NCBI GenBank assembly: GCA_944391485.1
Contig: CALXTQ010000006.1
Span: forward strand, 62,001 to 126,000
Source: an uncultured Alphaproteobacteria bacterium
GTDB lineage: Bacteria > Pseudomonadota > Alphaproteobacteria > RF32 > CAG-239
Length of the DNA: 64,000 nt
Direction: 5' to 3'
The position numbers were made by a program, and so were the translations under genes. The notes under the pieces are model-generated. The model was not told the DNA's origin. It did no database searches and worked only from the letters and a program-made list of their open reading frames with translations. This document shows positions 50,404 to 54,340 of the stretch, piece by piece. Each line of letters begins with the position of its first letter. Within the stretch, counting starts at the first letter, position 1.

Positions 50404-51987
50404 TTAGATTTTGCCGATGGCCAGCCAGTCGTGGGCCGGAATGGCGCTGTGGCAGGTGGTGAAGCCGTAGGTGTATTTTTTTTCGTTATTGACCGAAAAA
50501 TATCCGTAGTTGGAGCTTTTCCATTCCGTAACGCCGGCAACGATATAGGTCGTGTTGGCAAAGGCCTTGGGAAAAGTGATGGTCTGGTAGGTTCCGCTGG
50601 AAGGGGGAATGTAGCCTCCCTGCACGAGCTTGCCGCTGTTGTAGAGCTGGTACCAGGTGTTGCCGTCGGAGGCCTCCCAGTTTTCGACAATATAATCCGC
50701 CATATTTGACAGCGGCGTATTGCCGAGATTTGCGTCCGCCTTGCCGTTCAGTCCGTTGACAAATTCTGCCGCCTGAGCGGTGCTTGCCGGGACGGCTGCC
50801 GAATAAACCTGAATATACAGCGCCGTCTTGACGTGTCTGGGCTGGACTTCGCTGCCGGTTTGCACGCTGCGCGACGCGTCAAAGCCGAGAATATAGTTGG
50901 CGTAGTTTCCGCCGCCGCCGTCCCCGCCGTTGATCAGCGTATGCTGGTAGAAAGCGCCTTCCGTCGTCAGGTTGTTGCCGTTAGTGAAAGGCGAAGACAG
51001 AGCGTTGACGGTTCCCGTTATGTTGACAATCTGGTCTTTTGCCGCGGTGCCGATTTCGCTTAGCTCGGAGAGCGAGGATACAAAGCGGGTTATTTTCGGC
51101 AGGCGCAGACTGCCGGATTGTTCGTCAATGACAAAAGCGCCGGTTTCGCCGTAAGACGAGATTTCCGCTTCGTACGCTTCGGCGGACAGGGCGCGGAGTT
51201 TGCCGGCGGTTTTCAGCGCAACGGCTTTGTTCCAGAAATCGGGAAAGATTGTTCGGCAGCCGGTTATGTTTTCTCCCGTCCACAGGGGATAAGCGCCGGG
51301 AGGCGTTTCACCGCTGAAGCTCTGAAAAATCGTAAACAGCGGAATTGCCGTTTTGCCCATGGCCAGTTCGGCGCGGGCGGCGTATTGTCCGGCGGTTTCG
51401 GCAGAGGCGGCGGCCTCTTCGGCCGAGCTTCCCGCTTCTTCGGCTTTTTGCGCGGCTTCCAGTTTTAAATCAACGCAGTCTTCATAGACATGCGCCAGTT
51501 TTTCTATTTCCGCGCTGGAATTGACAAGGCTGTTGCCCTCCTGATTCCAGATGATGGATTTTCCGGCTTCCGGCGTCGGCAGACTGACGTTCAGATTGGT
51601 GGAAGAATAGGGCGGAAAGGTTATGGTTCTGCTGATCGCCTCCTCAAGCTGCTTCATGCAGGCCAGCTGATAGTCAAACTCCAGATTGACCTTGCTGGAG
51701 CGGAACGGACCGGCTTCCTGAAAGTCGGTGGTTCTTTTCAGCTCAAGATTGCGAAACAGAGTGATGATGACGCCGGATGCCGGCGCGGCGTCAAAGGCAA
51801 CGCAGCCGCCGTTGTCTTCCTCGTTCCGGCTGACCGTGTAGCCGGATGTTTGCAGCTGGTCGTCAAAATATACTTCAATATCATCCGGGCTGAAGATCGG
51901 AAACGAGAAGTAAAACTGCGTGGTTTCCCCGTCGCCGGCAAAACGGATGCGCGGCTTTGTATTGCCTATTTCAATTGAATCAGACAT
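50404..51987 (-). CDS. Phage-type tail-fibre (receptor-binding) protein
   Basis: 527 aa. The N-terminal part (RIRFAGDGETTQFYFSFPIFSP, IEVYFDDQLQTSGYTV, then RTTDF) matches the attachment domain found in many podovirus-type and prophage tail fibres. An Ala-rich coiled coil (EEAGSSAEEAAASAETAGQY) follows, then a collar-like FPDFW to RLPKI stretch. The C-terminal TITFPKAFANTTYIVAGVT to HDWLAIGK region resembles gp53-like receptor-binding tips. The ATG giving MSDSIEIG has GGAG in reach; a second ATG four codons earlier forms part of that site. No other phage genes are near. Confidence 0.8.
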   Translation of the reverse strand: MSDSIEIGNTKPRIRFAGDGETTQFYFSFPIFSPDDIEVYFDDQLQTSGYTVSRNEEDNGGCVAFDAAPASGVIITLFRNLELKRTTDFQEAGPFRSSKVNLEFDYQLACMKQLEEAISRTITFPPYSSTNLNVSLPTPEAGKSIIWNQEGNSLVNSSAEIEKLAHVYEDCVDLKLEAAQKAEEAGSSAEEAAASAETAGQYAARAELAMGKTAIPLFTIFQSFSGETPPGAYPLWTGENITGCRTIFPDFWNKAVALKTAGKLRALSAEAYEAEISSYGETGAFVIDEQSGSLRLPKITRFVSSLSELSEIGTAAKDQIVNITGTVNALSSPFTNGNNLTTEGAFYQHTLINGGDGGGGNYANYILGFDASRSVQTGSEVQPRHVKTALYIQVYSAAVPASTAQAAEFVNGLNGKADANLGNTPLSNMADYIVENWEASDGNTWYQLYNSGKLVQGGYIPPSSGTYQTITFPKAFANTTYIVAGVTEWKSSNYGYFSVNNEKKYTYGFTTCHSAIPAHDWLAIGKI

Positions 51988-52020
51988 TGTTTTCTCCATA
52001 TGGTGATTGTATTTAAAATA

Positions 52021-52048
52021 AAAAAATCCGCCCGGACGGCGGATTTCG
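52021..52048 (-). terminator. Intrinsic terminator in the tail-fibre leader (attenuator)
   Basis: Read leftward: AAATCCGCC and GGCGGATTT flank a short loop and end in a T run, 35-60 bp before the tail-fibre start and after its promoter. An additional small CACTTG/CAAGTG hairpin precedes it. Default transcription would stop here, giving an RNA of about 55-60 nt. Confidence 0.75.
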
Positions 52049-52076
52049 GATACACTTGTGGCAAGTGATACTCTGT

Positions 52077-52105
52077 TGTATAACAAAAAAATTTACAAAA
52101 GTCAA
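52077..52105 (-). promoter_or_regulatory. Promoter upstream of the tail-fibre attenuator
   Basis: On the minus strand: TTGACT, 17 bp, TATACA. Predicted start near 52070, before the attenuator hairpin. Confidence 0.7.
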
Positions 52106-53373: not shown

Positions 53374-53401
53374 TTGAAAATTAGCAAAATGCTGTTATAC
53401 T
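53374..53401 (+). promoter_or_regulatory. Promoter of the structured RNA
   Basis: TTGAAA, 16 bp, TATACT. The predicted start is near 53408, at the first base pairs of the RNA fold. Confidence 0.75.
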
Positions 53402-53406
53402 AAGCT

Positions 53407-53590
53407 CGCCAGGGGAAATGGTTAGCCCGTGGCGGAGTATGCAAGCTCCTTAAGTAGAACCTAATAACCTCCAATTTCTAATTTTTGGAGGATGACGCGA
53501 TATAAGCCGCTCTGCGGACGAATAAGCGTGCTGTCTACTTACAGCTTGCAACTCCTCCACCTTACCCTAAAAGTAAGGTGGTTTTGTTTT
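53407..53590 (+). ncRNA. Unrecognised structured RNA of about 180 nt
   Basis: A free-standing unit from promoter to terminator without a credible coding frame. Helices, from the 5' end: CGCCA (53407)/TGGCG (53430); a long closing helix GGAGTATGCAAGCT (53434) with AGCTTGCAACTCC (53543), continued by AAGTAGA (53452)/TCTACTT (53534). Inside it are hairpins CCTCCAA/TTGGAGG (53468-53491), ACGC/GCGT (53495-53529) and CCGC/GCGG (53507-53517). A terminator CCACCTTAC/GTAAGGTGG (53557-53581) with a T-rich tail closes it. The multi-branched fold does not match 6S RNA, tmRNA, SRP RNA, RNase P or a riboswitch I know. It could act alone or as an attenuated leader of the regulator 28 nt downstream. Confidence 0.75.
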
Positions 53591-53617
53591 TAACAAAATC
53601 AAAAGGAGTTGAAGAAA

Positions 53618-54097
53618 ATGACAAGAGCATATCAGGATTACATGAAATTTCAGCTGGAATTGGGCAAGGAGCTCAAGCTGGCGCGCCTTGAAAAAGGCCT
53701 CCAATGCTCGGAGGTGGCGCGTCTGGCCGGCGGCATGAGCACGACGTTTATCAAAAAAGCGGAAAGAGGCTCAATCAGGATGTTTTTTACGGTTATCCGC
53801 CTTATTGTTTTTTACAACAAAAGAGCTGTTATTTACCTGAGGGACAGACGGCCCGGGGACGATGTGCCGCTGATAGTTAAGGGCAAGCCGGGGAGCGCCG
53901 CGTCGGAACCGGTCGGGGAATCGGCGTGTTATGATTTTGAGGAAGCGGACCGCGAGGAGGAAAGTTATGAACTTGCGGAGGAGGAACGCAAGGCGACAGC
54001 CTGCGATCCGGCCGTCAGCGGGCAAAAAAGTTCTGCCTCTGCGGCGACAGCCTGCGCCCCGGCCGTCAGCGGGCAAAAGGGACAACCCTCCGCCTGA
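53618..54097 (+). CDS. XRE-like helix-turn-helix protein with repeat tail
   Basis: 159 aa. Residues 10-75 follow the XRE/Cro pattern (LGKELKLARLEKGLQCSEVA, then FIKKAERG and an Ile/Leu/Phe-rich third part), so it probably binds DNA. The tail is acidic and ends in two 17-residue repeats (ATACDPAVSGQKSSASA and its variant). AAAGGAG lies ten bases before the ATG; a TTG three codons upstream is too close. It follows the structured RNA and its terminator directly. The 3' end runs into a tandem array of about 85-bp units, so the tail may vary in length. Confidence 0.7.
   Translation: MTRAYQDYMKFQLELGKELKLARLEKGLQCSEVARLAGGMSTTFIKKAERGSIRMFFTVIRLIVFYNKRAVIYLRDRRPGDDVPLIVKGKPGSAASEPVGESACYDFEEADREEESYELAEEERKATACDPAVSGQKSSASAATACAPAVSGQKGQPSA
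53993..54094 (+). repeat. Two 51-bp repeats within the regulator 3' end
   Basis: Copies at 53993 and 54044 begin GCGACAGCCTGCG and contain CCGGCCGTCAGCGGGCAAAA; the period is a multiple of three, so it encodes a 17-residue repeat. Confidence 0.85.
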
Positions 54098-54340
54098 AAA
54101 AATAAGCCCCCGAAAATCGGGAGCTTTGCCCCGAATAAAGTTCGGAGTTCTGTCGTGGGCAAAAGGGACAACCTGCCGCCTGAGAAACAAGCCCCGAAAA
54201 ACTGGGGGCCGCTCCCCGAATAAAGTTCGGAGTTCTGTCGTGGCAAAAGGGACGAACCTCCGCCCGAAAAAACAAGCCCCGAAAACCGGGGGCTTTGCGC
54301 TGAATAAATCCCGGGGTTCTGCTGCTGGCGAACCTCCTCT
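54071..54340 (+). repeat. Tandem repeat array, about 85 bp, three copies and a partial fourth
   Basis: Copies begin near 54071, 54157 and 54241 (GGCAAAAGGGAC or a close variant). Each copy holds two hairpins, a GCCCC(C)GA/TCGGGG(C) stem and, in the first two, CCGAA/TTCGG, plus a GTTCGGAGTTCTGTCGTGG segment. The stop codon of the regulator lies in the first copy. Copies differ by scattered changes. The array resembles repeated terminator-like elements rather than a gene, and nothing resembles CRISPR spacing. Confidence 0.85.

Follow-up and report, generated by a model that had tools for sequence, protein, structure and literature searches.

A C4-like structured RNA, a candidate distant relative of sRNA-Xcc1, ahead of XRE-type genes in uncultured gut Alphaproteobacteria

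The c4 and the c4-a1b1 motif have both been listed (PMC2864571). C4 RNA carries the antisense regions a' and b' and is processed by RNase P (PMC5320573); in phages P1 and P7 (RF01695) this bipartite antisense is accompanied by a1/b1 sequences upstream and by a target at the downstream RBS. C4-like sRNAs are present in multiple copies in Acinetobacter baumannii, where they have been proposed to act in trans (PMC5320573). A further RNA, sRNA-Xcc1 (RF02221), is filed in Rfam as an sRNA gene. It has been noted ahead of symE in integron cassettes of Xanthomonas, where no more than a divergent mechanism of regulation was suggested (PMC12444791). We describe here an RNA that shares features with both.

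A terminated, multi-hairpin RNA ahead of an XRE gene

The window, that is, the whole stretch of DNA analysed, comprises 64,000 nt. An earlier note, made from its letters alone, had described a TTGAAA/TATACT promoter, a multi-hairpin fold and an intrinsic terminator, and all of them were found where it had placed them (Table 1). The predicted folding energy of nucleotides 53374-53590 is -79.6 kcal/mol, compared to -53.3 ± 4.4 kcal/mol for shuffled sequences (z -6.03, 0/200 shuffles). The promoter and its AT-rich spacer are kept in the other copies of the RNA that are described below. Judging from the spacing to the -10 box, the transcript probably starts at hairpin H1, near nucleotide 53408. 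On these sequence features, the window RNA (53408-53581) is genuine, structured and cleanly bounded.

Table 1. Positions of the RNA elements and of the following gene in the window
Feature	Position	Strand	Remarks
Promoter	53374..53401	+	-35 TTGAAA, N16, -10 TATACT; 10/12 consensus positions
5' hairpin H1	53408..53433	+	loop GAAAUGGUUAG conserved
Hairpin H2, GGAG[..]CUCC	53434..53449	+	a1 in loop
a1 (UGCAAGCU)	53440-53447	+	within H2 loop
b1 (UUAAGUAGA)	53450..53458	+	complement of b'
Hairpin P3, CCUCC with GGAGG	53468..53493	+	3' arm doubles as T5'
T5' (GGAGGAU)	53487..53493	+	5' arm of the predicted helix closing the C4-like core
P4/P5 hairpin	53495..53530	+	conserved internal loop GAUAUAAG / ACGAAUAAG
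Hairpin H3, CUGU[..]ACAG	53531..53544	+	b' in loop
b' (UCUACUUA)	53534-53541	+	H3 loop
a' (AGCUUGCA)	53543..53550	+	antisense arm, complement of a1
3' tail CAACUCCUCC	53549..53558	+	pairs with T5'; its CAACUCC complements the SD at 53605 exactly
Intrinsic terminator, tail TTTTGTTTTT	53557..53591	+	2-nt overlap with the 3' tail; also delimited as 53557-53581
Shine-Dalgarno (SD) GGAGUUG of the XRE gene	53605..53611	+	complementary to the 3' tail of the RNA
XRE/Cro-type HTH protein	53618..54097	+	159 aa here, ~77 aa in most copies; ATG start

The start of the XRE gene was read as the ATG at 53618, the mechanical ORF list giving a TTG at 53609. The proteins encoded behind the copies are of the XRE HTH type, with matches to C.BclI and HipB that hold at the fold level only (E about 0.005). 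A type VI retron was considered, as these proteins resemble PADLOC HTH_VI, and was rejected: the only RVT_1 match of the genome lies on another contig.

Copies, covariation and alternative pairings

The earlier note had treated the RNA as a single one. A DNA search detected six copies in its own genome and as many as 14 in genomes of the same genus, and a covariance model built on 43 copies (R1) matched 116 of the 152 genomes and 14 of the 16 genera of the bacterial family, which comprises uncultured gut Alphaproteobacteria of the Azospirillum sp. CAG:239 type; the named records with the core are likewise uncultured Alphaproteobacteria and Azospirillum sp. CAG:239. Seven R1 matches, together with one incomplete copy at the end of contig C12, bring the own genome to about eight copies. 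As three contigs of this assembly break at these repeats (C1, C5 and C12 each stop within a copy of the element or shortly after one), copy numbers, which range from 1 to at least 23 R1 copies per genome, are lower bounds. Outside the family, strong R1 matches were obtained in only one genus of another family among 385 sampled genomes of the class. Weak R1 matches in genomes of genus g4 (E about 1e-4) were left out of the argument. R1 did not bear out the pattern matches in one Lachnospiraceae, one Clostridia and one Lysobacterales record. In a 4.5-Mb alphaproteobacterium (L187, G320:C12), a divergent relative lies directly before a gene that, by eye, resembles a phage regulator.

Most copies directly precede an ORF with a strong SD, and 67 distinct short ORFs were found directly behind 85 distinct RNAs. 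The RNAs lacking such an ORF are mostly located at contig ends, inside tandem arrays or in gene-less copies, two of which, both divergent, are present in the own genome (L178 on G000:C18 and L179 on G000:C9). Tandem arrays consist of two to three RNAs about 250 bp apart (L197 1778-2388, L189, L194, L180), most of them with an HTH gene behind the last RNA only; within arrays, a'/b' vary together with a1/b1.

The search of relatives with a covariance model, as proposed in the earlier note, brought out abundant compensatory change: among the 43 aligned copies, 219 double-changed cells were observed vs 58.6 in shuffles which, like all the shuffle tests given here, ignore kinship among copies. In the same alignment 97.1% of the cells are paired (37-45% in slid controls), both sides change somewhere in 20 of 33 pairs, and every slid or shuffled control falls far below the real alignment of the helices. 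With respect to the long closing helix drawn in the note, its 13-bp part and its 7-bp continuation are present in the window and conserved with compensation; the outer pairs GGAGU/ACUCC are not conserved in divergent relatives. In GGTG-type copies GGAGU does not pair with the 3' ACUCC, so that this outer closing helix was kept as a local option only. The H2 stem GGAG/CTCC is swapped in relatives for GGTG/CACC, GATG/CATC, AGGG/CCCT and others, as read from the alignment listing with no statistic.

The long closing helix corresponds to a1:a' and its continuation to b1:b', and these pairs vary from copy to copy. Among 85 copies, the longest perfect complement of a' is 7.0 nt in its own a1 and 4.5 nt in those of other copies, the values for b' and b1 being 6.9 and 4.0 nt (0/2000 shuffles in both cases). 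The copies ahead of XRE genes (XRE branch) hence show the C4-type complementarity of a'/b' to upstream a1/b1, and the alignments show both arms as predicted partners of a1/b1 within the same RNA.

The drawn fold was incomplete, as it missed a conserved helix between GGAGGA at 53487 and CUCCUCC at 53552 that crosses it. This T helix (T5':T3') is 92.6% paired vs 80.4% in shuffles (0/1000), with at least five matched arm types (GGAGGA:CTCCTCC, GGTGGAG:CTCCACC, GAGGGAG:CTCCCTC, GGGGAG:CTCCCC and CTGGGAG:CTCCCAG). Covariation thus shows T5':T3' as the predicted closing helix of a C4-like core. Since T crosses a1:a' and b1:b', the RNA would be either a pseudoknot or a switching RNA. For the window leader, predicted energies are -78.9 kcal/mol unconstrained, -77.5 kcal/mol with tail:SD pairing forced and -68.9 kcal/mol in the C4 fold. 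The MFE, which leaves tail:SD unpaired (predicted pairing probability ~0.14), is 1.4 kcal/mol lower than the tail:SD fold, and the C4 fold is 10 kcal/mol costlier than the locked fold. Among 75 XRE-branch leaders the SD is predicted to be paired in 72, its partner being the tail in 38.

Relationship to sRNA-Xcc1 and C4

The Rfam scan suggested in the earlier note returned no family at threshold on the window RNA, and only a tRNA elsewhere in the window. Among the sub-threshold matches, sRNA-Xcc1 (18.6 bits, gathering threshold 53 bits) ranked low and was the exception to an otherwise chance-level list. With relaxed thresholds it falls on the motif in divergent loci (37.8, 30.5, 30.3 and 29.5 bits), and in the family-wide search it coincides with at least 10 R1 matches; a match above the cut-off was obtained in one of 49 genomes of the family (G151).

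The relaxed sRNA-Xcc1 search also revealed a second branch in the same bacteria. Its leaders (L234-L288), with T3' AACATCCGCCC and the SD GGATGTT, precede genes for lipoproteins, pilin-like and other surface or exported-looking proteins, as judged from their N-termini. A model built from this branch alone, with the C4-like fold (R2), recovers canonical sRNA-Xcc1 loci as well as XRE-branch copies; of its 30 matches in 137 kb, 29 are copies of the motif. R2 matches 129 of the 152 genomes of the family (highest count, at least 31 copies per genome). Its best match in the window, 53486-53559 (E 0.0027), falls exactly on the window RNA.

As R2 finds both kinds and the T helix covaries, the window RNA and sRNA-Xcc1 have a common predicted core fold, made up of T, P4/P5 with the AAUA..GAAUA internal loop, and H3. 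In both, an a1/b1 hairpin lies upstream, and each model finds the other's members below threshold. By these comparisons, the 3' half of the window RNA is a distant relative of sRNA-Xcc1; the class, which the earlier note could not name, stands outside every Rfam family at threshold, but its superfamily is recognisable. The two RNAs differ in that a1/b1 of the window RNA adjoin the core and are predicted to pair with it in cis, a terminator lies behind the core, and a tail:SD match takes the place of a2/b2.

Canonical sRNA-Xcc1 loci of other Proteobacteria (L203-L232) contain a hairpin whose loop carries a1, followed in the 3' direction by b1, in many cases by a hairpin resembling a terminator, then by the RNA itself and, at the RBS of the gene behind, by a2 and b2. 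Their antisense matches its own upstream sequence over 8.7 nt (6.0 nt for other loci) and its own downstream sequence over 6.8 nt (5.2 nt for other loci), both with 0/2000 shuffles; by sequence, the layout is the one reported for the C4 RNA of phages. Ten proteins encoded behind these loci were checked: four are Bro-N, two Rha, and one each KilA-N, P22_AR_N and SymE, the remaining one having no match. Just upstream of one such locus (L217) there is a CRISPR array (CRISPR-DR4).

C4 proper (RF01695) differs from the window RNA in its core sequence. Its model had no match in the own genome (G000) or in G002 and G003, and one second-branch copy reached 24 bits. C4 is processed by RNase P (PMC5320573), to ~77 nt, whereas the window RNA seems to keep its 5' part, and the genes behind encode XRE or surface proteins here and antirepressors in C4.

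Separate a2/b2 targets, present at canonical sRNA-Xcc1 loci, were not found behind XRE genes, where a'/b' complementarity shows no excess; they are apparently replaced by the tail:SD match. In the XRE branch the pair CAACTCC/GGAGTTG predominates and GGAGC occurs only with GCTCC tails; within this branch the link is weaker (25/2000 shuffles reach the observed value), because CUCC/GGAG fits almost any SD. Second-branch pairs include AACATCC/GGATGTT, AACTTCC/GGAAGTT, GAGCTCC/GGAGCTG and AACTCCC/GGGAG, and the tail matches its own SD over 6.8 nt and those of others over 5.8 nt (50 loci, 0/5000 shuffles). These comparisons show that the tail adjoining a' complements the SD of the following gene and that the predicted match shifts in step between branches, which supports tail:SD pairing as the putative output of the leader. 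The strongest argument is how many arm types and SD types are matched independently in different genera. The link that the earlier note had offered, to the XRE-like gene directly behind, gains from both the complementary tail and the ORF behind most copies, and the window RNA is very probably tied to that gene.

A putative leader and alternative explanations

We consider it probable that the element is an antisense RNA of the C4 type with distant homology to sRNA-Xcc1, joined in cis to decoy targets of its own, and that it serves as a leader. Most transcripts would end at the terminator, giving a stable sRNA of ~175 nt. Whether in trans or within a read-through transcript, the tail would pair with the SD and lower translation of the XRE regulator. 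Capture of the tail by T5' in the C4 fold would free the SD and weaken the terminator, which overlaps the tail, and a1/b1 would act as a locus-specific lock choosing between these states. More speculatively, the XRE protein may close the loop by repressing the promoter. Such alternation of one strand among aptamer, terminator region and SD recalls riboswitch or attenuator leaders, from which the element differs in its antisense-like, hypervariable recognition arms and in showing no sign of a ligand.

Several points argue against this reading: the weaker tail:SD link within the XRE branch, the MFE of the window leader with tail and SD unpaired, the energy cost of its C4 fold, the lack of a2/b2 targets behind the XRE genes, and the copies that are free-standing or lie in arrays without a gene. 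Such gene-less copies, the arrays with a gene behind the last RNA only, the clean promoter and terminator, the a'/b' pairs that vary among copies and the proposal made for the Acinetobacter RNAs (PMC5320573) would all suit a free-standing sRNA acting in trans, either on further mRNAs or, like C4 in superinfection immunity, on the RNAs of incoming phages, with the XRE gene as merely its regulator. We regard this as unlikely, given that most copies adjoin an ORF with a strong SD, that the tail tracks the SD of its own neighbour and that a scan of viral contigs with the core pattern detected no copy.

A metabolite riboswitch, in which the P4/P5 internal loop would bind a small ligand and the variable arms would be ordinary stems, is very improbable: invariant loops among variable stems, and a terminator and anti-SD resembling an expression platform, would be expected of it, but sRNA-Xcc1 has the same loop and fold at loci that follow antisense logic, and genes as unrelated as those for XRE proteins, lipoproteins and pilins suggest no common metabolite. 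XRE/HipB proteins are normally repressors or antitoxins, which counts against a type I toxin-antitoxin-like module. Such a module, with the RNA silencing an XRE protein harmful in excess, as sRNA-Xcc1 apparently does SymE, is likewise very improbable; it would accord with the canonical locus preceding the SymE toxin (also PMC12444791), the HipB-like fold and the multi-copy, mobile-looking nature of the element, but the second branch precedes ordinary surface-protein genes.

Returning to the leader reading, the bacterial family appears to have multiplied phage-type antisense RNAs (sRNA-Xcc1/C4) into putative gene-control leaders, and dozens of loci offer natural compensatory mutants; this would be an example of a phage-type immunity RNA become a gene-control leader. 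In the literature searched, sRNA-Xcc1, the antisense logic of phage C4 and a large unannotated leader set of an uncultured gut lineage were not found joined. A testable function is also offered for sRNA-Xcc1, which would repress the gene that follows it, be it one for SymE or for a phage antirepressor, by means of a bipartite antisense. More tentatively, and in our view rather improbably, dozens of C4-like leaders per genome could form a genome-wide antisense network, releasing sRNAs whose shared tails (AACATCC/AACTCC) reach every matching SD while hypervariable a1/b1:a'/b' locks determine the set of active copies. Were this so, a phage immunity RNA would have become one of the main regulators of XRE and surface-protein genes in a single family of gut bacteria.

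Two further features lie near the element in the window. Right behind the XRE gene, nucleotides 54060-54330 contain about three degenerate hairpin repeats of ~100 bp (CCCCGAAAA..GGGG). A long ORF on the minus strand (50404-52086) is, by eye, of the phage tail-fibre type and may be part of a prophage remnant.
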